Shown: positions 25,147-43,336 of the stretch, piece by piece | How positions within the stretch are numbered: position 1 is the first letter of the stretch | Layout: every line of letters begins with the position of its first letter | Assembly (NCBI RefSeq): GCF_900105685.1 | Contig: NZ_LT629781.1 | Coordinates: forward strand, 3,699,445 to 3,763,444 | Length of the DNA stretch: 64,000 nucleotides | From: Verrucomicrobium sp. GAS474 | GTDB lineage: Bacteria > Verrucomicrobiota > Verrucomicrobiia > Methylacidiphilales > GAS474 | Direction of reading: 5' to 3' | The notes under the pieces: generated by a model | Told to the model about the DNA's origin: nothing | The model's input: the letters and a program-made list of their open reading frames with translations, nothing else | Database searches by the model: none | Position numbers and translations under genes: made by a program

Positions 25147-25152
25147 GTCAAC
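25147..25152 (-). promoter_or_regulatory. GTTGAC box before gene 24405-25130
   Basis: GTTGAC on the minus strand, 16 nt before the ATG at 25130. One of eight boxes spaced 14-17 nt from late-gene starts; see the findings. Confidence 0.5.
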
Positions 25153-25161
25153 CGATCCTCG

Positions 25162-25413
25162 TTAGTCCTTGAACAGGTGGAGGCCCCACTCGATGAGGGC
25201 CATCAAGCCCGTACCCAGGAGTGAAAGTACGAAGGCAGCCCCCATGACTTTCTTCTTGTCGCCCTGGAACTCGGCCACATCCCGCTCGACGGTGGCCACG
25301 CGAAGAACAAGGCCGGTCGTTCCGAATGCGGGGTTTCCCACCACGGCCGTCTTGATCTCGTTAAGAAGGATGTCCTGGGCGTCGAGGCGGGCCTTTAATT
25401 CGTCGTAGCTCAT
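25162..25413 (-). CDS. Small holin-like protein (XhlA-type layout)
   Basis: An 83-residue protein. A soluble, coiled-coil-prone N-terminus (YDELKARLDAQDILLNEIK) is followed by a single C-terminal membrane helix (GAAFVLSLLGTGLMALIEWG) and a short charged tail. This is the layout of XhlA-like phage lysis proteins. It lies just downstream of the fibre gene, where lysis cassettes usually begin. Assignment rests on topology and position only. Confidence 0.6.
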   Translation of the reverse strand: MSYDELKARLDAQDILLNEIKTAVVGNPAFGTTGLVLRVATVERDVAEFQGDKKKVMGAAFVLSLLGTGLMALIEWGLHLFKD

Positions 25414-25431
25414 AATTAGGGGTAGGGGCGG

Positions 25432-27537
25432 CTACCAGCTCGAAAGCGCGGCCCGCTTCCAGGTGTTCGTCGCCGTGCAGACGTAGATGTAGGACGAGTC
25501 CCAGGTAATCGTACCAGCAACACCGGAAGAGGTGGCGTTCGCGGGGGGGGATGACCCGATCCTAATAGTCCCATTCACCTGGAGGGCGTTGACCCCGTCA
25601 TTCATGTCCCCCCCGAACGAGGCAAAACCATTTCCATAAATCGCAGCAACAACGCTTCCCGTCGTGCCGTCGGTGGCAATGGGGCGGAAGGAGACGCCGT
25701 TCTGGCCGGACGCCCAAACAATCTCCGTAGCGAAGCCCGCCGCGTTTCCGCCGAGGTGCATGCCATACAGGTTTCCTCCGCCACTATAAACAGCGAGGCC
25801 GCCACCCCCACCCGTCAGGTCACTCCCGTTGGTTTTAGTCCAAGAGGTCGGCCCAGATCCGGACGGCGTGATCGTGAGCGCCTGCCCCATGTTGATCGGC
25901 CCATGATAGATGCTGTTAACAGTGAAGGCATCCGTGCCAGACGATGTATCAAGCGCGAGCGCATGTCCGTTCGACCAGAGCCACGTGGCGCTGGAAGAAT
26001 TAGCCTCATTGGATGGCGACTCGATGATATCGAATATCGGATTTCCCGTGTAAAGCGTGTGAAGGATTGGAGTGCCGTCGATGACGTTGCTATTTAAAGT
26101 CATTCCGTGCTCGGTGTCGGCATTGAGTTCATACCCGCGGAGCAGGATTTTAGACCCGGTGTGATTCTTGCCGATTCCGATTTCGGAACTCGATCCCCCC
26201 GCGGCGTCCAAATAAACGTTCGCCGTCGAGACGCCGAAAGAAGGGCCACTAGGGATCGACCCGCTAGAGAAAAACGAGAGGGTGTTGGAGCTGCCGTCCG
26301 TTAACTTGGAGTTTTGCGGAAACGTGATGGGGCCGGTGAAATTCATGCCTGCGAAAGGCACGTCCGTGTAGCCGGGCGTCGCAGGAACACCCGCCCCTTT
26401 GCCAGCCATGACGCCATTGAGATATCGCGCCAGTACCTGCTGCCCCGCGTCGAGCGGGTGGAGTCCATCGTAGTAGAGCCCAGTGTCAGCTGGGTTCGAG
26501 AGCGCGGCGGCGTAATCAATCAGGATATCGCAGGGAATTGTTCCGTTACGAATGGCGCTGTTCACCTGCTGACGATAGCCCTCCATTGTCGCTGTCCAGC
26601 CGTAGGCGCTCGTCCGGGGCGTGATCGTGGAGAGCACCAACGTGAAGCCGTCGCTCCGCGCCTGGGCGCAGTAGGTGCCGAGGGCGGTGATGACCTGCGA
26701 TCCGGTATTACCGAGATTCCCTATATCGTTCGTCCCGATCATGAGGAACAGATAAGCGGTCGCTCCACCGCTTCCGCCGCTCGCTGACGGGCGATAGGGC
26801 TTCACGTTGGAGTTGTAGCGATCGGATACGTTATTTCCCGATCCCGACCCCGGAGAGATCGTGCTCCCACTAACGGCATCATTAATGATCGTTCCGCGCC
26901 CGGACGCGAAGGACATCGAGGCGAAATAATAGGAGAAGGGATGTGTTGCGAACGCGCCCGCCGTGATCGAGTCGCCCTCGAAAATGAAGTATTGGTCGGT
27001 GTTCAGCTTGACCAATTTTCCGGGCGCATTGAACGCATTCCCCTGCGTTGTTGCCGAAGCGTCCAAAGAGAGGATAGCGCTACCGTCGATTGCGAGGCCG
27101 GAACCGATTTTGACGCCGCCCAGGACCGAGGCGGATGCCACGGGCAGTGAAAGGGTTCCATCGCCCGCCACAGCCAATCCACCGCCGATCTTCACAGCCC
27201 CCAGAATAGAACTGGTGGCCTTCGGAAGAAACTGCGGCAAAAGCATGCCCCCACCATCGAGCTTCACAAGCTGGTTGGCAGCGTTGAAGGTGTTTCCCTG
27301 AATGGTGACTCCACCGGTTCCGCCTGCTCCGCTGACGTTCAGCCCGCCGGAGGAGGCCGAGACGGAAACCGCCCCGGAACCGGAGCCAATGGAAACCGCC
27401 CCTGCGCCGATGACGGAGTGGCCGCCCATGTCGAGATTGCTTCGGGCAGCGCCCTGAAAGTTGGGGCTGTTGACCTTGTCCTGAGCGTGAGCGCAGGCGG
27501 AGGCGCCCAGGAGGGCGAGGAGGAGGAGTTTTTTCAT
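25432..27537 (-). CDS. Tail-fibre-like protein with SGNH/GDSL hydrolase domain and signal peptide
   Basis: A 701-residue protein. Residues 1-19 form a Sec signal (KKLLLLALLGASACAHA). Residues about 80-180 hold fibre-type repeats (LGAVKIGGGLAVAGDGTLSL and LGGVKIGSGLAIDGSAILSL). An SGNH hydrolase follows: GDSIT (Ser190), GTND (Asn270) and DGLHP (Asp357, His360). The remainder is beta-rich fibre. ATG 27537 overlaps the previous stop (ATGA). The catalytic set is complete, so esterase/deacetylase activity on host surface glycans is likely. A signal peptide is unusual for a virion fibre. Confidence 0.85.
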   Translation of the reverse strand: MKKLLLLALLGASACAHAQDKVNSPNFQGAARSNLDMGGHSVIGAGAVSIGSGSGAVSVSASSGGLNVSGAGGTGGVTIQGNTFNAANQLVKLDGGGMLLPQFLPKATSSILGAVKIGGGLAVAGDGTLSLPVASASVLGGVKIGSGLAIDGSAILSLDASATTQGNAFNAPGKLVKLNTDQYFIFEGDSITAGAFATHPFSYYFASMSFASGRGTIINDAVSGSTISPGSGSGNNVSDRYNSNVKPYRPSASGGSGGATAYLFLMIGTNDIGNLGNTGSQVITALGTYCAQARSDGFTLVLSTITPRTSAYGWTATMEGYRQQVNSAIRNGTIPCDILIDYAAALSNPADTGLYYDGLHPLDAGQQVLARYLNGVMAGKGAGVPATPGYTDVPFAGMNFTGPITFPQNSKLTDGSSNTLSFFSSGSIPSGPSFGVSTANVYLDAAGGSSSEIGIGKNHTGSKILLRGYELNADTEHGMTLNSNVIDGTPILHTLYTGNPIFDIIESPSNEANSSSATWLWSNGHALALDTSSGTDAFTVNSIYHGPINMGQALTITPSGSGPTSWTKTNGSDLTGGGGGLAVYSGGGNLYGMHLGGNAAGFATEIVWASGQNGVSFRPIATDGTTGSVVAAIYGNGFASFGGDMNDGVNALQVNGTIRIGSSPPANATSSGVAGTITWDSSYIYVCTATNTWKRAALSSW

Positions 27538-28271
27538 GGAATGAGCAGGTAATCGATCGATCCGCCCGACTCGCTCGATTCGGGAGCGGCGGAAAGGTGG
27601 ATAGCAAGGGAGGTGGCCGTGGTGGCGGTCTTGTTCCGATGGGCGCGGATGTCGTCGGCGTCCGTCGGGAGGGAGAGGGTCAGGAGGGCGCGAGGCGATC
27701 TGGACAACCCCAGGGCGGTGAGATCGGCAGTGTAGTCCTGCTGGCCGACGACCAGGGCGATGGAGCCCGTAAGGGAGACGGTGAGGATGTCGACCGGGGA
27801 GGGATAGACAGGCTCGGCATCCGTGGGAATGCCTTCGTCCCCCTTGATCACGTCGTCGAGAATGATGGCGTCCCAGGTATTCGAGGAAGTAATGAGGCCC
27901 GCCGTGCTGCGGACCTGGATTTCCCCCATGCAGGTCACCGAGGCCAGCGGATGCCCTCCGTTGTCGATGAGGGTGTTTAGCTCGGTCGTATTGAACGACG
28001 GCGAGAAGGTGTAGACGGCACTTGCACCCGCTCCGGCCTTTTCCCAAGCCAGGTCGGAGACGATGTACCCCCCATTGTAGTCCCCCTTGACCTTGATGCC
28101 GAAGATGCCGGTTGAGGCCGTATCGTCCAGGTCGACGACGCTTCCCCCGCGGCAGAATTGGAGGCTGATGGTTTGCGAGTCCCCCCGCTTAAAGGCGAGC
28201 TTCGCGACGGCGGTGTTATTCAGCGGCCCGACAACGAGCGAACCGGCGTTCAGGTCGAAGTAGAGCTGCAC
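27534..28271 (-). CDS. Phage tail-tip/baseplate-like protein
   Basis: A 245-residue protein with a GTG start at 28271. The N-terminal 110 residues (FKRGDSQTISLQF and later segments) resemble the immunoglobulin-like N-terminal part of upper-baseplate proteins; the C-terminal half is Ser/Thr/Asp-rich. It lies directly upstream of, and coupled by ATGA to, the SGNH fibre gene, so it may be its attachment platform. The family assignment is tentative. Confidence 0.6.
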   Translation of the reverse strand: MQLYFDLNAGSLVVGPLNNTAVAKLAFKRGDSQTISLQFCRGGSVVDLDDTASTGIFGIKVKGDYNGGYIVSDLAWEKAGAGASAVYTFSPSFNTTELNTLIDNGGHPLASVTCMGEIQVRSTAGLITSSNTWDAIILDDVIKGDEGIPTDAEPVYPSPVDILTVSLTGSIALVVGQQDYTADLTALGLSRSPRALLTLSLPTDADDIRAHRNKTATTATSLAIHLSAAPESSESGGSIDYLLIP

Positions 28272-28285
28272 GTCACTTTGGGGGT

Positions 28286-28291
28286 GTCAAC
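28286..28291 (-). promoter_or_regulatory. GTTGAC box before gene 27534-28271
   Basis: GTTGAC on the minus strand (extended as GGGTTGACAC), 14 nt before the GTG start at 28271 and just after the TAG stop of the upstream gene. Confidence 0.5.
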
Positions 28292-28296
28292 CCGGT

Positions 28297-28509
28297 CTAG
28301 GCGGGGGACTTCACCTCGATTTGGGCGGCCGGTCCCTGCGCGGCGCGATGAAGCGGCCCCATGACGTTGACGAAGGTGGGAACCTCGTGGCCCTCGAGCC
28401 GCGAGCGATTGAGGAACTGGATGACCGCCAGCACGTCCCTCCGGGGCACCACCACCGACACCAACTCGCTTTCCTTGGGGATCGAGGGCGTTTCCTTCAC
28501 GTTGCTCAT
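28297..28509 (-). CDS. Small hypothetical phage tail-region protein
   Basis: A 70-residue protein from ATG 28509, overlapping the stop of the CxxC protein gene (ATGA). Soluble, with a helical core (VPRRDVLAVIQFLNRSRL). The open frame extends to 29019, but that part is a shadow of the neighbouring genes. No family recognised. Confidence 0.65.
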   Translation of the reverse strand: MSNVKETPSIPKESELVSVVVPRRDVLAVIQFLNRSRLEGHEVPTFVNVMGPLHRAAQGPAAQIEVKSPA

Positions 28510-28904
28510 ACGCCTTCCGCGCCAGTCAACTCCGGCCCCCACTTCGGCGACGGAAGAGGGCACTTGCTGAAGGCGCGGACCAGAAGCCCCCGGCCGCTGC
28601 ACGTGATGCATTTCGTGCATTTGCCGAATCCGGCGGGTTCCCAGAACGAGCATCCCTTGCAGATGGCCTCCCGGGCGGCAATGGTGGCGTCTTGCGCCCG
28701 CTTGGGTTTCGGGTTGGTGGTGACCTTCACGCGCATCAGGGCGAGCATCTTGTCGTGAGGCAGGACGTAATCGCCGTCCTCGTTGAGCGTCGCCGCCGCG
28801 ATGACCGACTGGGCGAAGGATTGGCGTCTGCCCTGCTGGGCCGAAAGCTGGGCCTTGCAGACGATGACGTTGTCGCCGACGCGTCGGATCGGAGGTTTCA
28901 TCAT
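28506..28904 (-). CDS. Phage protein with CxxC zinc-ribbon
   Basis: A 132-residue protein from ATG 28904, overlapping the preceding stop. The C-terminal half carries CKGCSFW, then KCTKCITC, a set of Cys pairs typical of a zinc ribbon (about residues 82-103). The N-terminal half is helical and basic. It lies among tail-tip genes, so it may be a structural or assembly zinc protein. The second copy (63369-63768) is frameshifted. Confidence 0.7.
   Translation of the reverse strand: MMKPPIRRVGDNVIVCKAQLSAQQGRRQSFAQSVIAAATLNEDGDYVLPHDKMLALMRVKVTTNPKPKRAQDATIAAREAICKGCSFWEPAGFGKCTKCITCSGRGLLVRAFSKCPLPSPKWGPELTGAEGV
28525..28530 (-). promoter_or_regulatory. GTTGAC box before gene 28297-28509
   Basis: GTTGAC on the minus strand, 15 nt before ATG 28509. 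This copy lies inside the 3' end of the CxxC gene, encoding its Leu-Thr. Confidence 0.45.
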
Positions 28905-29359
28905 GAGGGGGCAATGCAGCTGGTGGAGATGTCGATGGTCCCCGCGTCGCCGAGGTAACCTCCGAATCCGGTTCCGTAGGGGCCGGTGATCGTGAAGGTG
29001 GCGTAGGTGCCGCACCCATTATCGGCGGTCATGACCGTGCGGAACTTGATGGCGCACGGTTTGCAGCCGTCGACGCCGAGGAAGGCCTGCGTGATGGTGA
29101 AGGTGAAGGTCTTCACGTCCTCCCCAGCGCAACCGCAGGGATCGTCCGCATGGTCGGTGTAGGCGTTGCAAACCCCGTCCAGGTTCCCTGCCGTGACCCA
29201 GGTGCCATCGTTCTTCTGAAGTTGGATGTCGAAGGCGTCATCCTGGACGCTGTTCACGTTGTCGTAGGTGAACGTGAGGGAGCAGCCCTCGTCCGGAAGC
29301 TTGCAGCAGGAGGTCGGGCAGTGGCCGTCCGCGTCGGGAGTGGGGAGGACGAACGCCAT
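28901..29359 (-). CDS. Cysteine-rich phage tail-region protein
   Basis: A 152-residue protein, beta-rich, with about fourteen cysteines spread along its length (CPTSCCKLPDEGC near the start, CGCAG, CKPC, and others). Cys density this high suggests disulphides in an extracellular virion part or metal binding. It starts at ATG 29359 with a TAATG overlap to the 408-residue gene. No family recognised. Confidence 0.7.
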   Translation of the reverse strand: MAFVLPTPDADGHCPTSCCKLPDEGCSLTFTYDNVNSVQDDAFDIQLQKNDGTWVTAGNLDGVCNAYTDHADDPCGCAGEDVKTFTFTITQAFLGVDGCKPCAIKFRTVMTADNGCGTYATFTITGPYGTGFGGYLGDAGTIDISTSCIAPS

Positions 29360-30585
29360 TACGCCGGGGTCGTCATCAGGAAGTAGGCCGTCTTACTCAC
29401 GCCGTCGACGCAGAGGGTGACTTGCTGGGCGGACATCGTCCCCGTGAAGTCAGAGCAATCGATCGAGACAGTTCCGGTTCCATTGGTGAGGGTGAGTCCG
29501 CTAGGCCACCATGTTCCCGTGTGCGATCCGTCATTTAAAGATGCTGTCGCCGCCGCATATTGACCCACACCTCCCGTCCCATTGAGAACTGAAAAATTAC
29601 CGACCGTCGAGTTATAGTTTAACCCCGCGCCGGATGCGTCGAGCATCTGAAAGGCCACCTGAGAATTGCTGACGATCATTTCCGCATGTGACGCCGAATC
29701 GGGCGAAAACATTTCAAACGAGGATGCCGTCGATAAGACCTGAAGCTCAATCGTGGTGGCAAAGTTACTGCTATAAAGTTTGAGGTCGCCGCGCCTGTAG
29801 AGGAAATTGTATCCCGTAGCATCGTATGCGTAGATCGACCCATCGGTGGCGTTCAGGGCGGCGTAGGACGTACCAGCCGAATTGGATGTCGATATAATCC
29901 CCGCCCGCATGATCTGCGAGTACGCGGGGCTGAAGCAATAGACCGACCCGTCCGCGCCCCCCAACGCGGCATAATTGGCGTGGCCCATATCGCTTCCGTA
30001 GACCGTTCCTCCTCCCATGCCGTGCTCATGCCCTCCGCCGTAGATCCAGGCGGAGCCGTCGGTGGCGTCGAGCTGGCAGAAGGTGCTCTCGCCCTGGTTG
30101 GCGACGACGAGCTTTTTCTGGTGGACCAGGAAATAGTAATCGTCGATCTGGTTGTTGATCCAGAAGGAGGCGTCCCGGGCGTCGAGGGAGAGAAAGCGTT
30201 GGTCGTTTGCGGAGCTGAGGTACCAATACCCCTTCTCGTCCGAGGTCTCCAGCGTGTCGCCGTGGACTTGGGTGAACTTGCCCATGCCGAAGTCGAGAAA
30301 GGTGTCGATCCGATGGTCTCCGCCGTTGTCGTAGACGGCGGAATAGAGAACCGCGTCGGTTCCGTTGTAGCGGAAATCGAGGCGGCCGTAGATGTCGGAG
30401 GCGAGCGGCGGCGTATCGGATTCGGCGATGCGGTCGACCCGGAGCCAGTAGTTTTGCAGCTCGCCCGCGTGCTCGTTGGGCTGGCCGGAGCCGGGCTCGC
30501 CTCGGCCGTGCCAGATCACGGACTCAAGGCCGGTTCCGCCGAGGCCGCCGTTGCCGCCGGAGGTGGGGGGCGTTGTCTGGGCCAT
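29359..30585 (-). CDS. Tail fibre/receptor-binding-like protein with internal repeats
   Basis: A 408-residue protein. The Gly-rich N-terminus (TSGGNGGLGGTG) is followed by at least four copies of a short repeat: LDARDASFWI, LDATDGSAWIYG, LGGADGSVYCFS and LNATDGSIYAYD, spaced roughly 35-45 residues apart. The rest is Ser/Thr/Asn-rich and beta-helical in character. Its position after the tape measure and before the SGNH fibre suggests a host-contact fibre. Confidence 0.7.
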   Translation of the reverse strand: MAQTTPPTSGGNGGLGGTGLESVIWHGRGEPGSGQPNEHAGELQNYWLRVDRIAESDTPPLASDIYGRLDFRYNGTDAVLYSAVYDNGGDHRIDTFLDFGMGKFTQVHGDTLETSDEKGYWYLSSANDQRFLSLDARDASFWINNQIDDYYFLVHQKKLVVANQGESTFCQLDATDGSAWIYGGGHEHGMGGGTVYGSDMGHANYAALGGADGSVYCFSPAYSQIMRAGIISTSNSAGTSYAALNATDGSIYAYDATGYNFLYRRGDLKLYSSNFATTIELQVLSTASSFEMFSPDSASHAEMIVSNSQVAFQMLDASGAGLNYNSTVGNFSVLNGTGGVGQYAAATASLNDGSHTGTWWPSGLTLTNGTGTVSIDCSDFTGTMSAQQVTLCVDGVSKTAYFLMTTPA

Positions 30586-30956
30586 TAGAAATCCTGGGAG
30601 AGGTTCATGTTCGTTTGCGCGAAGACGGGCTGGACCTTCCGAATGTCGGGGTCGGGATCGTCATCGGTGGCGAGGGAGGCCTTCAGCTTTTCGAGGTCGT
30701 CGGCGGAGGTCCAGTATTGGACCCCCGCGAGCCAGCAGGGCGTCCCCGCGCCGCCACCGCCGGGGCGGCCGGTGATGGAATACCCCATGCCGTCGGCCTT
30801 GCTGATCTCCAGGCCTCCGCACACGGACACGTTGTCCCCGCGGAAGAGCTTCTGGAAGAGGCCCCGGATGACGCGGAGGTGCTTCCCGGAGACGAGGTAG
30901 GTGCCGCCGTCGTTCGGAGCCTCGGGGAGGTCGTTGATGGAGACTTCGTCACTCAT
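30585..30956 (-). CDS. Hypothetical phage tail protein
   Basis: A 123-residue soluble protein with a Gly-rich turn (RPGGGGAGTP) in the middle. It overlaps the upstream gene by 8 bp and the downstream gene by TAATG. Probably a tail-tip component by position; no family recognised. Confidence 0.65.
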   Translation of the reverse strand: MSDEVSINDLPEAPNDGGTYLVSGKHLRVIRGLFQKLFRGDNVSVCGGLEISKADGMGYSITGRPGGGGAGTPCWLAGVQYWTSADDLEKLKASLATDDDPDPDIRKVQPVFAQTNMNLSQDF

Positions 30957-31602
30957 GGGCGATGGGGATCTCGGCAGTGGGGATGTTCTGCCAGGTCAGG
31001 ACGTTCCGGTAGCAGATGCCGCCGATCTGGGTATTCGACGGGCCCATGAAGAGACCGCTCCCGACGGAGTAGGGGCCGGGAATCGTGTCAGGCTGACCGC
31101 CGACGGAGGGGCCGTCCTTGGGGCTGGCGGTGACGCTCGTCTCGGTGACGACGATCTTGGTAGCGTCGAGCGTGAGGAGCCCCTCGTAGGCGCTTCCGCT
31201 CTTCCAGCCGGTGAAGGCCTTGGTCGACGTATCGAAGATTGCGCCATTCTGCGGGGACGCCGCCGACCCGGCGACCTGGGCGAAGTTGGAAGCCTGCTGG
31301 ACGGGGATGGTGACGAGGCTTTTCTGCCGGGCGTAGTAGAGCCTGCCGAAGGCGAATGCGCCCTTGTAGCGAAGCTCGATCTGCCCCCACCCGCCGCGCT
31401 TGGAGGTGATGCGGAAGGTGTCGATGCCGACGTAGGCGTAGGTGGGGTGCGGCGTGCCGATATTCCAGTTGAGGCGCTGGATGTCCTCCAGGGAGCCGTT
31501 GTAGATCGCGTTTTGCGACACCATCCCGGCGACGTCGACATCGGTCGTCGATTCGGCCTGAAGGCTGAGGCCGTTGAAGGCGGGGTAAATCGAGTTGCTC
31601 AC
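30949..31602 (-). CDS. Hypothetical phage tail protein following the tape measure
   Basis: A 217-residue, largely beta protein with a GTG start overlapping the tape-measure stop (GTGA). The position directly after the tape measure is where distal-tail (Dit-like) proteins are found in siphophages. The sequence does not show a recognisable Dit motif, so this is an inference from order. Confidence 0.65.
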   Translation of the reverse strand: MSNSIYPAFNGLSLQAESTTDVDVAGMVSQNAIYNGSLEDIQRLNWNIGTPHPTYAYVGIDTFRITSKRGGWGQIELRYKGAFAFGRLYYARQKSLVTIPVQQASNFAQVAGSAASPQNGAIFDTSTKAFTGWKSGSAYEGLLTLDATKIVVTETSVTASPKDGPSVGGQPDTIPGPYSVGSGLFMGPSNTQIGGICYRNVLTWQNIPTAEIPIAHE

Positions 31603-33722: not shown

Positions 33723-34103
33723 TTAGGGGACGTTGTCGTTCTTGAAGCCGGTGTAGCCGATCTTCATCGTCTTTCCCGGATCGCCGAGGCGCTTGACGGG
33801 GGAAATGATGAGCAGATCGAGACTGCCCGCGCTGACGTGGGTCGAGATGGCGGAGACGACGCTGGTGAAGCTGACGGCGGTGTTTTCCAGGGGGATCTCG
33901 GTCCCGGGCTGGACGACTTCCTCAACCTCGATCGTCACGCCTCCGTCGACGGCGATGCGGTTGAGGCGGTTGCCGTTGACGTCGTGATTCCACTCGTTCT
34001 CCTGGTATCCGTCGACGGGCTGGAACTTGGTAACGTCGAATCCGGTATGAAGGGGGAGCGTGAAATTCTGGACGGCCCCCACGGGATACTGGCTGTTGCT
34101 CAT
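33723..34103 (-). CDS. Putative tail tube protein
   Basis: A 126-residue, beta-rich protein from ATG 34103 (an alternative TTG lies 6 bp upstream). It follows the tail-completion-like genes and precedes the chaperone and tape measure, as major tail proteins do, though it is small for that family. A GTTGAC box lies upstream. Confidence 0.55.
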   Translation of the reverse strand: MSNSQYPVGAVQNFTLPLHTGFDVTKFQPVDGYQENEWNHDVNGNRLNRIAVDGGVTIEVEEVVQPGTEIPLENTAVSFTSVVSAISTHVSAGSLDLLIISPVKRLGDPGKTMKIGYTGFKNDNVP

Positions 34104-34117: not shown

Positions 34118-34123
34118 GTCAAC
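34118..34123 (-). promoter_or_regulatory. GTTGAC box before gene 33723-34103
   Basis: GTTGAC on the minus strand (CCGGTTGACAC), 14 nt before ATG 34103, just after the TAG stop of the upstream gene. Confidence 0.55.
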
Positions 34124-34651: not shown

Positions 34652-35478
34652 GACGATTTCGGGGGATGGTCGATCGCGTTCTGGATGCGGGCGCGGAGCT
34701 TGTACTCGGCGTCCTTGAGGGCGATGGACATGTTCTGCTGGCTCAGGACGCGGCGGGTGTAGTTGATGTTATTGACGATGGTGAGGGTCGGCTGGTTGGG
34801 GTCGTCGGTCCGGTCCTCGACCTCTCCGGGGGCGTCCCGGTGCCGCTTCACCCATCGGGGGAAATCGCGGGTCGAGTTGGCCGCATCACCGATGATCCGG
34901 GCGCAGGTCGCCCATCCCGCCTTGGCGAAGCCGACGCGGGCGACGAGCATGTTGAGGATCTGCACGCCCTTCGACTCGGGGATGACGGTCCGGGTGATGA
35001 ACTTCCATCGCCCGATCGTCCGGTCGAAGGCGCTCACGCTGCTCATGCGGCCGTCGCGGAACGCGCTGTGGTGGATGGCGTCCAGGTCGCCGACGGAGGG
35101 GTTCCGCATGAAATGCTCCTTGTCCGTCCCGTAGACCTCGCCGTTTTTCTTGGCGAAGATCTGGACGGTGGTCGACTCCTCCTCGGTGGCGTTGGCGATG
35201 ATGGAGTCGGGGAGGGTCTTGAAGATGCCGAACCGCCGCACCGTGCTCGAGGTCAGGCCTTTCTGGCCGCTCCCGAAGAGGTCGCGCCGGATGGCGCTCT
35301 CCCCCTGCCCTTTGGCCTTGTCGTCCATGCCGAACGGCTGCATGGCCTTGGCGAGTTCCCAGCACAGCCCGCGGGCGGCCACCTTGAGTTCCTTCTGGAC
35401 GGTTCGTCCCGTGCGCTTCGCGAGATCCCGAACTAGGGCGGCGTACCGCGTGGTATCGACCGTGAGGGTGATGCTCAT
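34648..35478 (-). CDS. Phage neck or minor tail protein
   Basis: A 276-residue protein from ATG 35478 (ATGA overlap with the gene ending at 35475). The start is Thr-rich (SITLTVDTTRYAALVRDLAK), then helical. The C-terminus is basic with INYTRRVLSQQN. Order suggests a gpZ-like head-tail or minor tail protein. The open frame up to 35802 is not protein-like. Confidence 0.65.
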   Translation of the reverse strand: MSITLTVDTTRYAALVRDLAKRTGRTVQKELKVAARGLCWELAKAMQPFGMDDKAKGQGESAIRRDLFGSGQKGLTSSTVRRFGIFKTLPDSIIANATEEESTTVQIFAKKNGEVYGTDKEHFMRNPSVGDLDAIHHSAFRDGRMSSVSAFDRTIGRWKFITRTVIPESKGVQILNMLVARVGFAKAGWATCARIIGDAANSTRDFPRWVKRHRDAPGEVEDRTDDPNQPTLTIVNNINYTRRVLSQQNMSIALKDAEYKLRARIQNAIDHPPKSS

Positions 35479-35783
35479 CGGTTGAGGCTCTGGAGGGTGA
35501 TCTCGTAGGTGACGAGGTTCGCGTCGACGCGGGCGACGCGCCAATCCGATCCGCGGACGGTGGCCTTGCTGGTCCCGATGATGGGCGCGGCGGCGAGGAG
35601 GGACTTCCGAATGCTGACGGCACCCGTTTTTCCGTCGATGAAGGCACCCGCCGCGAGAGTCTGCGCGATGCCCTGGGTGGGGACGATGACGGGGAGACTC
35701 ACCCCGTCGAGGATGGCGGTCTCCCCGAACAGGCTCTCCATCTCGATCCGGGCGGCCTCGAGGTCGGACGTGGCGTCGCTCAT
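35475..35783 (-). CDS. Head-tail joining protein-like
   Basis: A 102-residue protein with an acidic N-terminal helix (DLEAARIEMESLFGE) followed by strands, similar in size and shape to the small head-tail adaptors of lambda-type phages. It begins the tail-side gene group after a hairpin at 35815-35840. Confidence 0.6.
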   Translation of the reverse strand: MSDATSDLEAARIEMESLFGETAILDGVSLPVIVPTQGIAQTLAAGAFIDGKTGAVSIRKSLLAAAPIIGTSKATVRGSDWRVARVDANLVTYEITLQSLNR

Positions 35784-35797: not shown

Positions 35798-35803
35798 GTC
35801 AAC
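35798..35803 (-). promoter_or_regulatory. GTTGAC box before gene 35475-35783
   Basis: GTTGAC on the minus strand, 14 nt before ATG 35783, in the gap after the 35815-35840 hairpin. Confidence 0.5.
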
Positions 35804-36294: not shown

Positions 36295-37266
36295 TTAGGC
36301 GTTGGATTCCGTGGCGACGATGGCCTCGGTGACGTGAAGGGGGACGTCGTTCGATTCGGTCGGCGCGGGGGACCAGCCAACCTTGCCGGTGCTGTCGGCG
36401 GGCTGGTTCTTGATCGAGCTGCGGCTGACCTGGAGCTGACGGGCACCGGCACGGCTGGTGAAGGCGTGCATGTTGACCCGGTATTCGGTCGGGATCTTCT
36501 GGACGAGCTGGGCAATGAGATCGTCCGTGAGGGTGTTCCCCGTGGTGCCGTCGAGGCCCGAGATCCGGTAGACCGAGAACTGATTGACGACGCTCATGCC
36601 GAACCAGCCCATGAAGCTGGCGACCTGCGCCATCGTCTTGTTGCCGTTCGCGAGGGCGATCTGCTGCTGAATCCAGGGAGTCAGCGTCATGTTGCCGTCC
36701 TGGCCGACGGAGAGGTGCGCCCCCTGCTCGTGGAGGCAAAAGAGGAAGAGGGAGGTGCTGGAGCCCGAGGCCCCGCCGCCCTTGATCCAGTAATCGGTAT
36801 CGCCGTTGATGATCTGGATCGCGCCGGGATAGCCGAGCGCGTCGGAGACGACACCCGCGTCGCCCTTGCCAGTGCCAACGGCCTTGCTGCCGTAGTACAT
36901 CTGCTGGGTGAGGCGGTAGAAGGCCGACTTGAGGGTGCCCTCGGACTCGATGGCGAGGACATCGCCGACGCTGCGCTTCTGCGCGGCGATGATGCCGTTC
37001 GGAACCTCCAGCTGGGCTTCCATGTAGAACATCTCATGGTCGTCGAGGACGATCGTCGACTTCGAGGTGGGAACGCCGCCGCCGGGCTTGGCGAAGTTGA
37101 CGGGCGGCAGGGCGGTCCGGCGGGAAACCTGGAAGGAGGTTCCGGCGCGGGAGACGGCGGGGAAGAGATCAAGCTCCACCTTGGAGGTGACGGCGGACTC
37201 GACGAGGCCGGTGACGGCATCGCCGTTGTTGAGTCGCACGATATCGAGGAGATTCAGGTCGGGCAT
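36295..37266 (-). CDS. Major capsid protein
   Basis: A 323-residue protein of HK97-like size, preceded by the S49 protease and scaffold-like genes. It shows an extended N-arm and SFQVSRRTALPPVNF, then long helices around the peripheral domain (ALGYPGAIQIINGD). An identity by exact motif is not possible; module order and length make the call. Confidence 0.8.
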   Translation of the reverse strand: MPDLNLLDIVRLNNGDAVTGLVESAVTSKVELDLFPAVSRAGTSFQVSRRTALPPVNFAKPGGGVPTSKSTIVLDDHEMFYMEAQLEVPNGIIAAQKRSVGDVLAIESEGTLKSAFYRLTQQMYYGSKAVGTGKGDAGVVSDALGYPGAIQIINGDTDYWIKGGGASGSSTSLFLFCLHEQGAHLSVGQDGNMTLTPWIQQQIALANGNKTMAQVASFMGWFGMSVVNQFSVYRISGLDGTTGNTLTDDLIAQLVQKIPTEYRVNMHAFTSRAGARQLQVSRSSIKNQPADSTGKVGWSPAPTESNDVPLHVTEAIVATESNA

Positions 37267-37296
37267 AGGAGTGGTGTGGTGGGGGTGGTGATCGGG

Positions 37297-37971
37297 TTAG
37301 GAAGCCTTCCGGCCGAAGGCGCGGTTGAGGGCCTCCACCTCGGGCGAGGCGTTGAAGGCGGCGGCGGCGATCTTCGTGCCGCGCCCATGCGTGCCGGGCT
37401 TGATGGAGGCGGCGATCTTCTGGGCGGGGCTCTGGTTGGGATCGCTGGAGATGGCGAGCGGCGTCTCGATGCCGAGCGCGGAGATCTGCGCGGCGGACGC
37501 CGCGGCGACGGCCTTGTCGAAAGCCTCCTTCGACTGGGCGGTCGCCGTCTTCCGGGCGACGCGGGCGGTCAGCTTCTTGAGCTGGCGCTGGCGCAGGGCG
37601 AGGGCGCGGGGCCAATTACCGGCCTTCGCTTCCATGTCGGCGTCGTCGCCCGCCTCGGCGTCGGCGTCTTCGTCGGCCGCATCGCCCGCGTCCGCTCCAA
37701 CCTTGCTGCTGATGTCCTTGAGGACGCCCTGGAGGGTGGAGATTGCGTTCTCGATGGCCTTGACGCTCTCGGAGATGCCGCCGCTCGCGTCGGGGGCTGA
37801 ATCCCCTTCCTCGGGCGCTTCGGCCTTCAGCTTGGCGATCTGGGCGGTAGCCTCGGCGAGGGAGGCGCGGAGGGTGGCGGATTCGGCGGTGGAGGCGGAA
37901 GCGTTGGCCTTGAGGGCGGTCAGCTCGCCCTCGAGGCCGGTCATCTTGGCGATAAGCTCAGGAAGGGTCAT
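37297..37971 (-). CDS. Scaffold-like coiled-coil head protein
   Basis: A 224-residue protein. The N-terminal heptad-rich region (TGLEGELTALKANASAS through about residue 55), an acidic middle (DAADEDADAEAGDDAD) and a basic C-terminus form the typical layout of phage scaffolds. It lies between the maturation protease and the capsid gene. Confidence 0.7.
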   Translation of the reverse strand: MTLPELIAKMTGLEGELTALKANASASTAESATLRASLAEATAQIAKLKAEAPEEGDSAPDASGGISESVKAIENAISTLQGVLKDISSKVGADAGDAADEDADAEAGDDADMEAKAGNWPRALALRQRQLKKLTARVARKTATAQSKEAFDKAVAAASAAQISALGIETPLAISSDPNQSPAQKIAASIKPGTHGRGTKIAAAAFNASPEVEALNRAFGRKAS

Positions 37972-37988
37972 ATTGCCCTTCTCGGCGT

Positions 37989-37994
37989 GTCAAC
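37989..37994 (-). promoter_or_regulatory. GTTGAC box before gene 37297-37971
   Basis: GTTGAC on the minus strand (CCGGTTGACAC), 17 nt before ATG 37971, just after the protease stop. Confidence 0.5.
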
Positions 37995-38000
37995 CGGCGG

Positions 38001-38879
38001 TCACGATTTTTCGGGGGCGGAGAAATCGGGGATCGACATGGGAAAGACCCCGGAGGCCGAGCAGAGGTCGGCATAGGCGTCCTCGAATTCCCCGAGGTTG
38101 TCGGCCAACCCGGCGGCGACGGCGTCGAAGCCCATGACGCTCTGCCCGCGCATGAAATCGGAATCGATCATCGGACGCCGCGCCATGACGAAGCCCTGGA
38201 AACGATCGAAAAGGGCCTGAACCCGTCCCTGAATCTCTTCCTTCTGCTCGGGCGTGAAGGAGGGGCCGTGGCCGGCGGACTTGTAGATCCCCTCGGCGTT
38301 CACGATGGGGGCGAAGGTGAGCCCTTCCATTTCCCATCTCGCGCTCTTGTCGATCCAGGGGTAGATGACGCCGATGCTTCCCACCTCGGAGGAGGGCGTG
38401 CACCAGATTTGGAACGCGGCGGAGGCGAGCCAGTAGGCTGCCGACCCGATGATGGTGTCGGTCCAGGCGTAGAGGGGAATGTCGCAGTCCGAGAGGATGC
38501 GGGACATCTCGGGGATGCCGCCAATGGTGCCGCCGGGGGAGTCGACGTAGAGCATGATCCCCTTCGCGCTCTGCTGTCGGAGCGCGTCGAACTCCCGACG
38601 CACGTCGCAGACATCGGTATTGCCGCACGATTTCTCGATCAGGCCCAGGTGCTTCCCGATGACGCCGCAAATGTGGATGTGACCGATCCCGTTGTCGTCG
38701 ACGAAGGCGTCGCGGCGGGGGTTCTCGACCATGATCGAGGCGTCCAGCGGCTCCGCGTCGTCGTCGGCCCGGGCTCGCCCCATCTTCGCCTCCAGGAGCC
38801 GCTGGACGGAGGCGTGCCCCCCGGCCGTGATGAGCCACGGCTCGTTGTAGACGGCCTGAATGATGTGCTGGAGGCGCAT
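38001..38879 (-). CDS. Head maturation protease, S49/SppA family
   Basis: A 292-residue ClpP/crotonase-fold serine protease like lambda gpC. Conserved parts are the strand IMLYVDSPGGTIGGI, the nucleophile segment IIGSAAYWLASAAFQIW (Ser in GSAA) and the following EVGSIGVIYPW, before a Lys about 20 residues later as general base. It processes the scaffold/capsid precursor in prohead maturation. It lies between portal and scaffold. Confidence 0.9.
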   Translation of the reverse strand: MRLQHIIQAVYNEPWLITAGGHASVQRLLEAKMGRARADDDAEPLDASIMVENPRRDAFVDDNGIGHIHICGVIGKHLGLIEKSCGNTDVCDVRREFDALRQQSAKGIMLYVDSPGGTIGGIPEMSRILSDCDIPLYAWTDTIIGSAAYWLASAAFQIWCTPSSEVGSIGVIYPWIDKSARWEMEGLTFAPIVNAEGIYKSAGHGPSFTPEQKEEIQGRVQALFDRFQGFVMARRPMIDSDFMRGQSVMGFDAVAAGLADNLGEFEDAYADLCSASGVFPMSIPDFSAPEKS

Positions 38880-38885
38880 GAGGGA

Positions 38886-40430
38886 TTAGGAGGCGGGTTG
38901 GGGTGCGGGAAGAATCTCGGCCTGATCGGGCGGAACGACGGCTGCGGTCCCTGCGGGCGGCGGGAACACGGCGGCGTAGTCGACGCCGAGGCGCTTGCAC
39001 TCCTCCTGGGCGAACTTCACCTCGGAGATGCGCTGGGTGATCTGGCCTTTCCAGCTCTTCCCCTGGGAGGCCCAGAATTCCGCCCAGCTACCGAATCCGG
39101 CGGCGAGGTCGGCTATGCGGGATTGGGCGGTGTTTCCGGCGTCGGCGTTGATCTTCGCCGGTCCGAGCCAATGGCAGTCCCACCAGCGACGGGCGTTGGG
39201 CATCGGGTAGCCCTGGGCGAATTTCTTGGAGAGCCACCAGATCCAGACGCGGCGGTTGAAGCGGCGGTTGAGCTTCCCTTGTTTCATGTCGAAGAGGGCC
39301 TGGATGTCGGCGAGGTTGATTCGGGCATTCGCCCCGCCGAGCAGGGAGAGGTTCCAAATCAGCTCGACCGACAGTTCGGTGCCGACGGCGATTTCACGAT
39401 AGAACCACTCCAGGAAGGAGATGAGATTGACGGTGGGGCGGGATGAGGAGAGAAGCTTGATGTCCTCCCCGACGCCGAGGGACTTGATCATTGCCCCGGC
39501 GAAGATGTCTTCACCCAAGACGGTCTTCCCGGTGGGGGTCTGCGTGCCGTTCTCCGCGGCGGAGGTCGCCAGCATGGTTTTGAGCTGGTCGGTGAAGCCG
39601 CCCGCCCCCATTCCCTTCCCCTCGTTTTTCGTGTAGGCGATGGCGAGGGCCGAGTGGAGTTTGACGGTGGCGACTTCCAGGGCCTTGAGGTCCATCACGT
39701 CGACGCCGGAATTGGCGACGGAGGCGAATGCCGAGAGGCCTCGGTACTGATTCGGCCTGCGGCGGTCGCACAGGTGGATCATGTTCGAGGCATCGACATC
39801 GATCGTGCCGGACCCGCCGCCGCCTTCGGTGACGCGGACCGCATAGGCGAGGATGCGGCCCTTGGAGTTCACCTTAACGCCGTCGATGTAGGAGGACTCG
39901 CCCGGATTGAGGAGCCCGGGGGGCGTTCCCGAGGAGGCGTAGTATTCGACTTCGCCGGGGTCGATGAGCTGGAGCTGGGGGGAGTCGGCCTTCGCCGAGG
40001 AAACCATGGCGGTGAACGCCTCGGCCTCGCCGAACTCCGATTCGACGTTCCATTTCTGCATCTCGAAGAAGTCCTGCATGCCCATCGCGTCGCAGACGAG
40101 GGGGTTCGAGGCCCATTCGATGAATTCGGTGGTCGTGTGGTCGTCCCACGCCTGATCTCCGGTGCAGGGCATCGGCAGGACGCCCATGCCGACGGAGTAC
40201 TTGCCGACCTTCTTGATCAGGGCCCCGATGATGGAGAGGTTCGCCTCGAGGTAGCGTTTCTTTCGCAGGATCGTACGCCGGTTGTAGTAGCTGAACTCCT
40301 TCTCGGCGGTCTGGGGGAAGGCGAGGAAGGCCTGCGAGCGTTGCCCGGTGATCTGGGCGGACTCGTAGTAGGTGTTTCCGATGCTCTGGAGGCGTTGACG
40401 CCGAATCGGCTTTTGCTGTTTCTGGGCCAT
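38886..40430 (-). CDS. Phage portal protein, lambda family
   Basis: A 514-residue protein. It has the lambda-gpB-type N-terminus (ASIG-like YYNRRTILRKKRYLEANLS), a central wing with IDPGEVEYYASSGTPPG, DASNMIHLCDRRRPNQYRG, and a C-terminal crown region. It forms the dodecameric DNA gate at the head vertex. The order terminase, gpW-like, portal, protease is the lambda arrangement. Confidence 0.92.
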   Translation of the reverse strand: MAQKQQKPIRRQRLQSIGNTYYESAQITGQRSQAFLAFPQTAEKEFSYYNRRTILRKKRYLEANLSIIGALIKKVGKYSVGMGVLPMPCTGDQAWDDHTTTEFIEWASNPLVCDAMGMQDFFEMQKWNVESEFGEAEAFTAMVSSAKADSPQLQLIDPGEVEYYASSGTPPGLLNPGESSYIDGVKVNSKGRILAYAVRVTEGGGGSGTIDVDASNMIHLCDRRRPNQYRGLSAFASVANSGVDVMDLKALEVATVKLHSALAIAYTKNEGKGMGAGGFTDQLKTMLATSAAENGTQTPTGKTVLGEDIFAGAMIKSLGVGEDIKLLSSSRPTVNLISFLEWFYREIAVGTELSVELIWNLSLLGGANARINLADIQALFDMKQGKLNRRFNRRVWIWWLSKKFAQGYPMPNARRWWDCHWLGPAKINADAGNTAQSRIADLAAGFGSWAEFWASQGKSWKGQITQRISEVKFAQEECKRLGVDYAAVFPPPAGTAAVVPPDQAEILPAPQPAS

Positions 40431-40442
40431 GGCGGTACGGCG

Positions 40443-40808
40443 TTAGTGCTGGATGGCCCCGAACTGGCCGTAAGAGGTCGTCCGCTTCGAGTTGGGGAGC
40501 TGGCCGATGGTGGGAACGCAGACGAGATTGCCGTCCTCGTCGTAGGTGGGGGTGGCGTCGACGTTCGTCTCGACGATCTGGAGAGCCAGCTCGACGACCT
40601 CCAGTGCGTCGGCGGCGGTCATCCCGTCGAGGAGGGTCCAGGAGGCGGAACTCCCCCCGGTGCTGGTGCCGACGCGGGTCCGTCCATCGCCGGAGGTGAT
40701 GAACTTCGCCAGGGGGGCGAGGAGGCCGGTCAGGTATGCCACCGCGTCGCCTTGCTGCTTGGCGAGGCGGACTAGGGCGGAGGCGAGAAGGCTTTTTGTG
40801 GCGGCCAT
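40443..40808 (-). CDS. gpW-like small head-completion protein
   Basis: A 121-residue protein between terminase large subunit and portal, the place of lambda gpW. The N-terminal helix is Ala/Leu-rich; the middle has SWTLLDGMTAADALEVVE. It is longer than lambda gpW, so the name rests on position. Confidence 0.6.
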   Translation of the reverse strand: MAATKSLLASALVRLAKQQGDAVAYLTGLLAPLAKFITSGDGRTRVGTSTGGSSASWTLLDGMTAADALEVVELALQIVETNVDATPTYDEDGNLVCVPTIGQLPNSKRTTSYGQFGAIQH

Positions 40809-40823
40809 TGTCAGGGCGGGGCT

Positions 40824-40829
40824 GTCAAC
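40824..40829 (-). promoter_or_regulatory. GTTGAC box before gene 40443-40808
   Basis: GTTGAC on the minus strand, 15 nt before ATG 40808. The terminase stop codon TGA lies inside the box. Confidence 0.5.
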
Positions 40830-42660
40830 GGGCGGCGTTCTCCTTCACCTTGGCGGCGAGGGCCGCGAGCATCTCCGATCCCCACAGCGTCGGGAGGAAG
40901 AGCTGCTGCTTTTCGCAATCGCCCAAGTGGTTGTTGTCCTCCTTGGTCTTCCAGCCCTCCTTCTCGGTCAGGTACTCGTCGGTCAGCTGCACCTCGTAGT
41001 CCTTCCCCAGGTTGCGCGGGAGCCACCAGTTGTTCTTCAACCGGTCCTTCACGGCGTTCAGGTAGAGGGCGTACTTGAAAGTGGGGTCGTCGAACTGGAT
41101 GAGGGGGCCCTGCCGCCCGGCGTGGTCGAAGGTGTTTTCAATAATCGTCTTCGTGAAGCCGTGGCCGCCCGTTCGGCCTTGGGTCGCGGAGAAGCGACCC
41201 GCCCCGGGGCCCAGCACGAAGTCGTAGACGCCCTTGTATCGCTTCGCCCGAAAGCCCATGTCGATCAGGCCGAACATGCAGGAGACGGTTTGGTCGGTTC
41301 CCTTGATCCGGTGCTTCATGTCGGCCAGGGTCATGATCTCGTCGAAGGAGAGGATCTGGCCGTAGTCGACCAAGGCGGACGCCGCGGTTCCGAACCACGC
41401 CCGCTTCACCCACCAGAAGCAGGACTGCTGCACGTCGACCGAGAGGGTCATCATGGCGAAGTCGGCCACGTTGGGGATCTCGCCGAGCAGGTACTCCGGG
41501 GAGCGCTCGACGACGGCGTCGATATCGCTCTTCGCCACGGTGCTCCCCTTCGGCTGCCACGGCAGGGCGCACTCTTCGTTCAGGAAGTTCCGAAGGCCGC
41601 CGGGGGTGTCGAGGCAGGTGAGGAACTTGACGGCCAGGGCGGCGATCGAGCATTTCGCGTGCGGGCTGTAGATGGACGGAATGCGACGGCTCCGCTTTCC
41701 CTCGGGGGCGTCGGGGTTGGTCGCCTTCCAGCGGCCGAGGGCGACGGCGGCGGCTTTCTCGCCTTCGGTGATGAGCTTGGCGCAGTGAGGGCATTTCAGG
41801 CGGGCGGTGTCCTGAACGATTTTCAAATCCCACTCGCCGTTGGCTTTCTTCGCGGAAGGCCCCCCGGCATCTTCACCCCAAACAACGCGGGCGGCGGGAA
41901 CTCCGGGGAAGTACTGGGCGGTATGCTCGGGGGAAATTTCGAGGGTCGTCTCCTTCCGGCAATGAGGGCAGTCGACGAAGTAGAGGCGGCGGTCTCCCGC
42001 CATGAACCCTTTCCAGCTCGGGCCGCTGGGAAGCTGGGGGGTGCCGGTCTTGAAAACCTTCGATCCGGAGAAGCTCTTCGTTCGGCTGTCGAGCATGCCG
42101 ATGACCGACATGCCCTTCTTGTTCCACTCCGCCTCGACGTCGTCGATTTCGTCGATGAGGATGAGGGCGGCGGAGCGGCCCTTAGAATTCTTCTGGGAGC
42201 CGGTGGCGATGAAGGTGAGGACCATCCGCCCGAACTGCTGCTCCAGCTTTTTGAAGCGGTCGGCTTCTTTGGGGATGTGCTTCCGCAGGGCGGGGCTGGC
42301 CTCGACGACGGGCTTCCACTTCGTCTCGGCGAAGGCCTTCAGGAGATCCTTGTTGGGCATCGCCCAGATAGCGTTCTCCGGGTGCTGGTCGATCTTGTAG
42401 GCAAGGCCGACCATGAGGGCCGTGGACTTGAAGACCTGGGCGGCCCAGCACCATGTGTTGTCCGAGACGGTGGGGTCGCGGAAGTCCTCGAGGGCCTCGT
42501 CGACGTAACGGCAGTTGGAGGTATCGAAGGGTCCGTCGTTCTGGGTGACGACCTCCGGCAGGATGATGTTGTCTCTCGCCCATAGGACGACGCTCCGATG
42601 CTCGATGGGGCGGAGAACGTCGACGTAATCGGCGAGGAGCTTAGTTGCCCCCAGCGTCAC
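40825..42660 (-). CDS. Terminase large subunit, GpA family
   Basis: A 611-residue packaging ATPase/nuclease. A degenerate Walker A region AAQVFKSTALMVG (about residue 73-85), Walker B LILIDEIDDVEAEW, and a GpA-type zinc segment with CPHC pairs (about residues 230 and 300) are visible. The C-terminal nuclease half includes the LSVDVQQSCFWWV stretch. GTG start 42660, overlapping the small subunit by 20 bp. GpA terminases cut at cos sites, so cos packaging is expected. Confidence 0.93.
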   Translation of the reverse strand: MTLGATKLLADYVDVLRPIEHRSVVLWARDNIILPEVVTQNDGPFDTSNCRYVDEALEDFRDPTVSDNTWCWAAQVFKSTALMVGLAYKIDQHPENAIWAMPNKDLLKAFAETKWKPVVEASPALRKHIPKEADRFKKLEQQFGRMVLTFIATGSQKNSKGRSAALILIDEIDDVEAEWNKKGMSVIGMLDSRTKSFSGSKVFKTGTPQLPSGPSWKGFMAGDRRLYFVDCPHCRKETTLEISPEHTAQYFPGVPAARVVWGEDAGGPSAKKANGEWDLKIVQDTARLKCPHCAKLITEGEKAAAVALGRWKATNPDAPEGKRSRRIPSIYSPHAKCSIAALAVKFLTCLDTPGGLRNFLNEECALPWQPKGSTVAKSDIDAVVERSPEYLLGEIPNVADFAMMTLSVDVQQSCFWWVKRAWFGTAASALVDYGQILSFDEIMTLADMKHRIKGTDQTVSCMFGLIDMGFRAKRYKGVYDFVLGPGAGRFSATQGRTGGHGFTKTIIENTFDHAGRQGPLIQFDDPTFKYALYLNAVKDRLKNNWWLPRNLGKDYEVQLTDEYLTEKEGWKTKEDNNHLGDCEKQQLFLPTLWGSEMLAALAAKVKENAAR

Positions 42661-43306
42661 GACTACCCTCCATCTCCTCCATTGCCGCAGCGCGAATCCT
42701 ATTCACGCCCTCCTCGATCGCGGTCTTCGCTGTCTTCGGATTGGAGCAGAGGGGCGCGGTCTTTGCGCCGAGGAGGTCGAGGCGGCGGAGGATGGAGTTG
42801 AACGCCTGGAGGTAGATGGCCTTAGCCTCGGAGACGTAGAGGGTGATTCCCTGCTCCCGCGCCCACTGGCTGACCTGCTTTTGCATCCACATGCGATGCT
42901 TCTGGGCCTGGATGAAGCTGGCCTGGGCCTTGGCGTATTCGATGGGGTCGCCGTCGGCGTCGGCTACGCGCTGGCGCTGGCGGTTGGCCTCCTGTTCGGC
43001 GAGCTTGGCCTGACGGAGAGCGTCGTAGGGGTTGTTCGATTGGTCGCCTTCGGCCTCGCCCTGGTCGTCGATGCGGTTGATCTGGTGGCGCTCCTCACGC
43101 GGAGGGATCAGATCGGCGGGGGCCTCGATGGCGGATGACTCGATATCGGGGCTGGCGGAGGGCTTTTTGCGGCCCCGGGGTGGGGCATTCGTTTCGCGCC
43201 AGGCATTCGCCGACTCGACGCTGTCGCACGGCATCCCCTTCTTGCGCCACTGGGATACCATCCCCTTCGACACACCCAACGACTCGGCAAGTTTAGTAGG
43301 ACTCAC
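42641..43306 (-). CDS. Terminase small subunit (Nu1-like DNA-binding protein)
   Basis: A 221-residue protein. The N-terminal helix-turn-helix (TKLAESLGVSKGMVSQWRKK, residues 4-23) resembles the Nu1 winged helix. A linker and a long helical C-terminus for large-subunit contact follow. GTG start 43306 follows a GGGA Shine-Dalgarno. Three copies of a decamer lie across and upstream of the start and are candidate binding sites for this protein. Confidence 0.85.
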   Translation of the reverse strand: MSPTKLAESLGVSKGMVSQWRKKGMPCDSVESANAWRETNAPPRGRKKPSASPDIESSAIEAPADLIPPREERHQINRIDDQGEAEGDQSNNPYDALRQAKLAEQEANRQRQRVADADGDPIEYAKAQASFIQAQKHRMWMQKQVSQWAREQGITLYVSEAKAIYLQAFNSILRRLDLLGAKTAPLCSNPKTAKTAIEEGVNRIRAAAMEEMEGSRDAGGN

Positions 43307-43336
43307 TCCCTACTAAACCGGGTCAACCTACTAAAC
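43291..43336. repeat. Three phased decamers at the terminase start (cosB-like)
   Basis: GTTTAGTAGG at 43291-43300 and its reverse complement CCTACTAAAC at 43309-43318 and 43327-43336; starts are exactly 18 bp apart. The arrangement gives one inverted pair and one direct pair around the small terminase GTG. Lambda-type gpNu1 binds similar repeated sites next to cos. Confidence 0.7.

Follow-up and report, generated by a model that had tools for sequence, protein, structure and literature searches.

Compact promoter elements at a fixed distance to the transcription start site are familiar from phages, the T4 late promoters among them. The phiEco32 promoter (gp36) reads tAATGTAtA, with transcription starting 6–8 bp downstream (accessible part of PMC8948821), and the promoter of the AR9 non-virion polymerase reads AACA-N6-TA/G, with leaders of 26–491 nt (accessible part of PMC5312081). 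In cluster K mycobacteriophages, the 13-bp start-associated sequence (SAS), GGGATAGGAGCCC, lies 3–9 bp before start codons. It was described in 2011, and its function was still unsettled in the available passages of papers from 2011, 2024 and 2025 (PMC3203893, PMC11373665, PMC12699233). Of these, PMC3203893 also names the stoperators of mycobacteriophage L5. Here we describe a box, KTTGACAY, in a prophage of Verrucomicrobium sp. GAS474 and in its relatives. The window analysed was a stretch of 64,000 nt at the end of a single-contig bacterial genome of 3.76 Mb. We tentatively read the box as a compact, phage-specific promoter that would give near-leaderless messenger RNAs (mRNAs), with a probability of about 0.46 as judged from the sequence.

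Start-coupled boxes in the prophage and its relatives

The prophage spans about 22778–57691, is flanked by two 54-bp direct repeats and contains a siphophage-like late operon. A preliminary description had listed eight GTTGAC boxes on its minus strand, 14–17 nt before start codons, and all were found at those positions with those spacers. Measured between the G that opens the box and the first nucleotide of the start codon, the distances were 20, 20, 20, 21, 21, 21, 22 and 23 nt, and three of the boxes (28291, 34123 and 37994) read GGTTGACAC.

The description had called for a count on both strands and for a shuffled control. A box in the window was scored as start-coupled when an ATG or GTG followed at 20–23 nt and opened a frame of at least 60 codons. 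Boxes at 58726, 60013, 63154 and 63393 were excluded as second copies within a duplicated stretch at the contig end, beyond 57638. Between 22701 and 57700, 8 of 10 GTTGAC on the late strand were coupled, compared with 1 of 12 on the opposite strand. Among the 180 permutations of the hexamer, the runner-up reached 3, against 8 for GTTGAC, which also came first among all 4096 hexamers for start coupling in the prophage (next best 6).

The same box, which the description had proposed to seek in related phages, was found before gene starts in relatives with about 20–40% protein identity. These reside in Verrucomicrobiota, and Verrucomicrobia bacterium LW23, which carries at least two such prophages, belongs to the same order as the genome of the window. 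The box extends far beyond this prophage and occurs in Verrucomicrobiota phages with the consensus KTTGACAY, roughly GTTGACAC. Searches of open-licence PMC papers, judged by titles and abstract openings, brought up no earlier report of it.

Enrichment was tested by counting hexamers 18–23 nt before any ATG against those 40–51 nt before. Start codons elsewhere in this work were inferred from open frames, a rule of which this plain-ATG test is independent. Phylum groups followed the record titles, and L097 was left out of 80 loci. In 28 Verrucomicrobiota bacterial loci, TTGACA ranked first (75 vs 14.0 expected) and GTTGAC second (64 vs 13.0). Neither was enriched in 28 Planctomycetota loci (ranks 358 and 522) or in 23 loci of other phyla (ranks 863 and 2211).

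A further 79 viral loci were fetched from IMG/VR with the head protein of LW23, that is, of a box-carrying phage; this protein had no match among phage records. TTGACA again came first (263 vs 25.5 expected) and GTTGAC second (264 vs 26.0), and on the antisense strand they ranked 607th and 1126th. At least one start-coupled site was present in 79 of 79 loci (398 sense vs 20 antisense), counts that are not independent events because the loci are related to one another and were chosen by head-protein similarity. Eighty IMG/VR loci fetched with the protease gave a weaker and shifted signal (TGACAC first, TTGACA second, GTTGAC 187th), and L173 and L174, close relatives of the protease of the window, had no box.

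The box was also missing elsewhere. On the sense strand, three of the 28 bacterial loci (L093, L103 and L111) were without any start-coupled site. When phages with names were ranked by terminase, Akkermansia phage Moulinsart came first; it had TTGACA once and no start-coupled box that stood out, which indicated that the box is bound to a lineage and not universal in the phylum. An Akkermansia metagenome locus (L161) had seven sites. Moulinsart (L338) carries its own repeated leader, roughly AAAGAGACGGCGGGGA, before the coding sequences at 2808, 4684, 10632 and 15339, perhaps another start-associated sequence.

In 85 phage sequences, 337 of 387 sense KTTGACA were start-coupled (ATG or GTG at 20–24 nt, at least 50 codons), and 60 permutations of TTGACA in the same sequences gave a mean of 3.3 and a maximum of 33. 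Chance as the source of the pattern was ruled out by the hexamer ranks and the permutation tests. The distance from KTTGACA to ATG was 20 nt in 120 cases, 21 in 90, 22 in 16, 23 in 47 and 24 in 17, with at most 10 at each other distance from 10 to 58 nt. On the antisense strand, 15 of 39 KTTGACA were coupled with ATG or GTG, above the permutations, and 18 of 39 if TTG starts were allowed. Part of these coupled copies are probably genuine antisense genes with boxes.

The 50 uncoupled sense copies were at background level (permutation mean 43, sd 39). This match offered no hint of a box function away from start codons, and it bore on the possibility of a repressor site that would halt transcription throughout the prophage. 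The stoperators of mycobacteriophage L5 are such sites: many, short, oriented and bound by repressor in gene gaps. They are not known to stand at a fixed distance from start codons, and they also contain TTGACA. The box resembles them in being short, asymmetric, of one orientation and present in many copies in short gene gaps. However, a roadblock needs neither a spacing of 20–24 nt to the start codon nor a G pair locked to the box (below), and would not predict that uncoupled copies stay at background. We consider a repressor site very unlikely.

Box anatomy and the nested start

Site sets were de-duplicated on the 9–12 bases after the start codon. The aligned sites gave the consensus K-TTGAC-A-Y; apart from the spacer and the start codon, there was no further conservation between 50 nt upstream and 44 nt downstream of the box. 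This indicated that there is no -35/-10 pair. The preliminary description was right that the box is too close to serve as the gene's own -35 element, since no -10-like signal follows it. A sigma-70 promoter was rejected on the same grounds, the start codon occupying the place of the promoter spacer.

The spacer changes from C-rich to G-rich toward the start, and a GG at 17–18 nt kept its place relative to the box rather than to the start codon. G at offset 18 was present in 77% of sites with starts at 20–21 nt (n=162) and in 93% of those with starts at 23–24 nt (n=43), while G at position -2 from the start fell from 65% to 7% between the same classes. The C just before the start codon was partly tied to the start (73% and 47%). 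A promoter with transcription starting at a fixed distance predicts just such a box-locked GG and leaves the start codon free to vary within 8 nt of the transcription start. Together, start coupling and the box-locked GG narrowed the choice to a promoter of near-leaderless mRNAs or an RNA start element. Of the four options in the preliminary description, the regulator site and the translation-initiation element survived and the module boundary found no support.

The main rival is the RNA element, UUGACA-N10-GG. A phage-encoded or recruited factor would bind to it and set the ribosome at the nearby start codon, in place of Shine-Dalgarno pairing. Several points favor it and weigh against the promoter. 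The coupling to start codons is near total, the tolerance of 5 nt recalls Shine-Dalgarno spacing, and the box marks single genes inside compact operons as well as an in-frame nested start. Its position is also where mRNA leaves the platform of the 30S subunit. On the other side, the GG is tied to the box rather than the start. We regard the RNA element as possible, if not the favored reading.

Pairing within the spacer was also considered. Hairpin-like spacers of the type GCCC-N4-GGGC exist, but pairing beyond composition was weak and missing in one class. When spacer halves were swapped, the mean stem gave p values of 0.09 and 0.07, and the strongest stems numbered 7 vs 2.9 expected (p 0.017). 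With column shuffles, the excess of spacer stems gave p 0.011 in the 20-nt class and 0.019 in the 23-nt class, and strong stems in the 20-nt class numbered 9 vs 3.6 (p 0.004). This weak excess would suit an RNA element, but the 21-nt class had no stem signal (p 0.89). The spacer hairpin is a weak explanation of the box. The ninth GTTGAC of the late strand, which the preliminary description placed behind a stop codon and which lacks a coupled gene, is followed by CCGCATTTGATGCGG (23846–23866, minus strand) with a perfect 6-bp stem.

In the head-protease gene, the box occurs inside an open frame. Among 42 long protease frames, 36 had an inner in-frame start preceded by a box, at 21 nt in 33 of them and at 24 nt in 3. 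At 20 or 23 nt, the TGA of the box would act as an in-frame stop codon, which rules out here the distance that is commonest elsewhere. Searching from the protein, with any codons allowed, located Val-Asp 7–8 residues before an in-frame ATG in 35 of the 42 frames. Such pairs were spelled GTTGAC in 35 of 37 cases, as against 2 of 43 other Val-Asp pairs in the same frames, and the residues between the box and the inner start were variable. The box is kept here as nucleotides, since the spelling of Val-Asp is fixed while the residues that follow vary; the 35 spelling cases are not independent events because the loci are related.

A nested in-frame start of this kind is present in LW23, A104 and many IMG/VR loci, and was overlooked by a simple gene caller. 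In phage lambda, Nu3 likewise starts in frame inside the head-protease gene C, from an internal ribosome site. By position, the nested gene would be the scaffold, as Nu3 is in C. The inner LW23 protein had no PHROG match.

The nested start also bore on the proposal that the box is a gene-boundary sequence guiding module exchange by recombination. As a boundary would suggest, 86 of 230 sites had an open frame of at least 60 codons that terminated at the TGA inside the box, a raw count not set against chance. However, the nested start, with its single spelling, has no boundary, and stand-alone genes such as integrase also carry the box; on these grounds the proposal was unsupported. In addition, the spacing to the start is too exact, and the flanks of the box are not conserved. 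Of all the readings, we hold this one the least credible.

Boxed genes, host background and a possible mechanism

Genes with the box were compared in six long prophages (W, LW17, LW15, A107, A104 and A094; 62 sites), two of them, LW15 and LW17, closely related and from the same genome. A seventh long prophage, A108, has a late region cut at the start and was excluded from this comparison. The gene for the terminase small subunit, the first late gene, was boxed in 6 of 6, as was the gene nested in the protease or lying between the protease and the head protein. The major head gene, directly behind the boxed nested gene, lacked the box in 22 of 23 cases. This is as expected of an operon member if the box is a promoter, but not of an RNA element that aids translation, as this gene needs high output.

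The preliminary description had labeled the boxed genes as late. The box does mark mostly structural genes, but the label was too narrow: boxes also preceded a few early genes and an integrase gene adjacent to the end of a tRNA (A107). A minus-strand gene that diverges from its neighbor across a gap of 62 bp (A104) was boxed as well. The boxed first late gene and such stand-alone units counted for the promoter. A site at which the transcript is cut just before selected genes would also leave short leaders of fixed length, and sequence alone cannot separate it from a promoter. However, stand-alone genes such as the integrase are boxed too, and no consistent stem is present, leaving RNA processing with little likelihood.

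Genes joined by overlaps had been said mostly to lack the box. This held in the main, except that the boxed start at 28509 overlaps the upstream gene by 4 bp, and 10 of the 62 sites in the long prophages lie at 4-bp overlaps. Gene overlap therefore does not exclude the box. In A107, the gene directly before a boxed one (L249 19133–19633) codes for a small protein of the AAA family (Pfam AAA; weak DNA_pol3_delta2).

In sampled host genes, TTGAC 19–23 nt before the start was found in 0 of 272, 0 of 193 and 0 of 22, and GTTGAC in a wider window in 0 of 276 (G000) and 1 of 144 (LW23). These near-zero counts ruled out a host signal in the sampled genes. Host leaders were C-rich and had no purine-rich column. 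Akkermansia muciniphila is named, in the available part of one paper, among organisms with scarce Shine-Dalgarno pairing (PMC10783764). The 16S rRNA of the genome of the window contains neither TGTCAA nor GTCAAC to pair with the box. Shine-Dalgarno identity was rejected on this absence and because the G pair follows the box rather than the start. Searches for bS21 gave one or two matches per genome in 5 genomes, none within prophage coordinates. The lack of host use, of 16S pairing and of a prophage bS21 all speak against the RNA element.

If the promoter reading is correct, the box would act in DNA, and transcription would begin about 17–18 nt downstream, at the box-locked GG. The start codon would then lie some 2–7 nt from the 5' end of the mRNA. 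Such near-leaderless mRNAs may suit hosts that hardly use Shine-Dalgarno pairing. A phage-encoded factor would steer host RNA polymerase to the box, and the helix-turn-helix protein encoded upstream of the terminase small subunit is a candidate.

Its family was common to 4 of 5 other long box-carrying prophages (5 of 6 in all), and A108 had no match to it. The family matched a sigma-region-4 fold weakly. Sequence searches against Pfam and PDB gave nothing significant, and a Foldseek comparison with viral models yielded three matches below 0.001, none of them to a characterized protein. The adjoining gene 43558–44085 resembled an LW23 neighbor by eye, and a profile search gave no link. A search for T7-type RNA polymerase (PF00940) found none in 10 genomes, with its control equally silent, and so says nothing against such an enzyme.

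More speculatively, Verrucomicrobiota phages may possess a private initiation code, with promoter and translation start fused into one 25-nt unit. A phage factor would fire RNA synthesis a few nucleotides before chosen starts, giving single structural genes, even the one nested in the protease, a leaderless mRNA of their own. Such a code would not depend on Shine-Dalgarno pairing, and host genes would make no use of it. We consider this a plausible but tentative extension.

Table 1. Boxes and neighboring genes in the prophage of the window
Feature	Coordinates	Strand	Remark
Box GTTGACcc	43322..43327	-	21 nt before GTG 43306, terminase small subunit gene
Box GTTGACag	40824..40829	-	21 nt before ATG 40808, gene 40443-40808
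Box GTTGACac	37989..37994	-	23 nt before ATG 37971, gene 37297-37971
Box GTTGACcc	35798..35803	-	20 nt before ATG 35783, gene 35475-35783
Box GTTGACac	34118..34123	-	20 nt before ATG 34103, gene 33723-34103
Box GTTGACtg	28525..28530	-	21 nt before ATG 28509, gene 28297-28509
Box GTTGACac	28286..28291	-	20 nt before GTG 28271, gene 27534-28271
Box GTTGACag	25147..25152	-	22 nt before ATG 25130, gene 24405-25130
Ninth GTTGAC	23861..23866	-	uncoupled; ATG 18 nt on opens 38 codons only
Candidate regulator, helix-turn-helix protein	43965-44414	-	upstream of terminase small subunit
Terminase small subunit gene	42641-43306	-	
Terminase large subunit	40825-42660		late operon
Portal	38886-40430		late operon
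Head protease	38001-38879		late operon
Major head protein	36295-37266		late operon
Tail protein match	25432-28047		late operon

Gene 40443–40808 sits between the large terminase and the portal, and the TGA stop of the large terminase gene falls within its box. Gene 37297–37971 may be the scaffold, judged only by its place between the protease and the major head protein; it had no PHROG match.

At 43290–43450, just upstream of the terminase small subunit gene and across its start, there are several repeats of GTTTAGTAGG / CCTACTAAAC and one GTTGACAC in the opposed orientation, possibly a packaging or terminase binding site. On the plus strand, GTTGACAT at 55405–55653, with TATATA about 17 nt further on, resembles an ordinary sigma-70 promoter and precedes a small gene and a second gene (55544–56263) with a weak likeness to ImmA/IrrE. 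A tRNA-Ala (TGC) gene (56254–56326, plus strand) lies within the prophage limits beside an integrase-like gene (56347–57516). A 27-bp tandem repeat array (52107–52636) lies inside gene 51923–53053, which matches tail-fibre and collagen-like tail families. The segment 57638–64000 is a second copy of 22778–29137 (99.9% identical) in which the contig ends, and the contig begins (L002 1–12536) in another part of the same prophage. This may mean that the prophage stands in tandem or that the assembly breaks inside a circular phage.

Comparison with described systems

The box represents an independent, widespread start-associated repeat in a phylum other than that of the mycobacteriophage hosts. Its rules (the box-locked GG, the 20–24 nt window and the nested start) allow clear-cut yes/no predictions that set transcription against translation. 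A leaderless promoter, if true, would show single-gene expression by phages in hosts of little Shine-Dalgarno use, and an RNA signal, if true, would be a phage-only route to translation start. Either way, start-codon calls and the detection of Verrucomicrobiota phages would improve, and nested genes would be exposed.

With L5 stoperators, the box shares many oriented short sites in gene gaps, but the stoperators have another sequence and are not known to be tied to starts at a fixed distance. With lambda C/Nu3 it shares the nested in-frame start, which here carries a box.

Like the phiEco32 and AR9 promoters, as far as the accessible parts of those papers describe them, the box is a short element at many phage genes with a fixed distance to a mapped or presumed start site, and copies inside genes, as at the nested start, are common to AR9. 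The start sites were mapped there, whereas here the start site is a presumed one. A phage sigma factor or polymerase is known there, and here a candidate helix-turn-helix protein. The AR9 leaders of 26–491 nt also differ from a start codon 20–24 nt after the box.

SAS, by the passages available, is likewise a short asymmetric repeat, mostly in one orientation, near many starts and nearly absent from the host. A Shine-Dalgarno core is part of SAS, and most of the genes it precedes are non-structural, whereas the box has no such core and stands mostly before structural ones. KTTGACAY differs from the 13-bp SAS consensus, and the 8-bp box ends 12–16 nt before the start, farther than SAS, although the single orientation holds. 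By the features tested, the box lies outside the SAS family.

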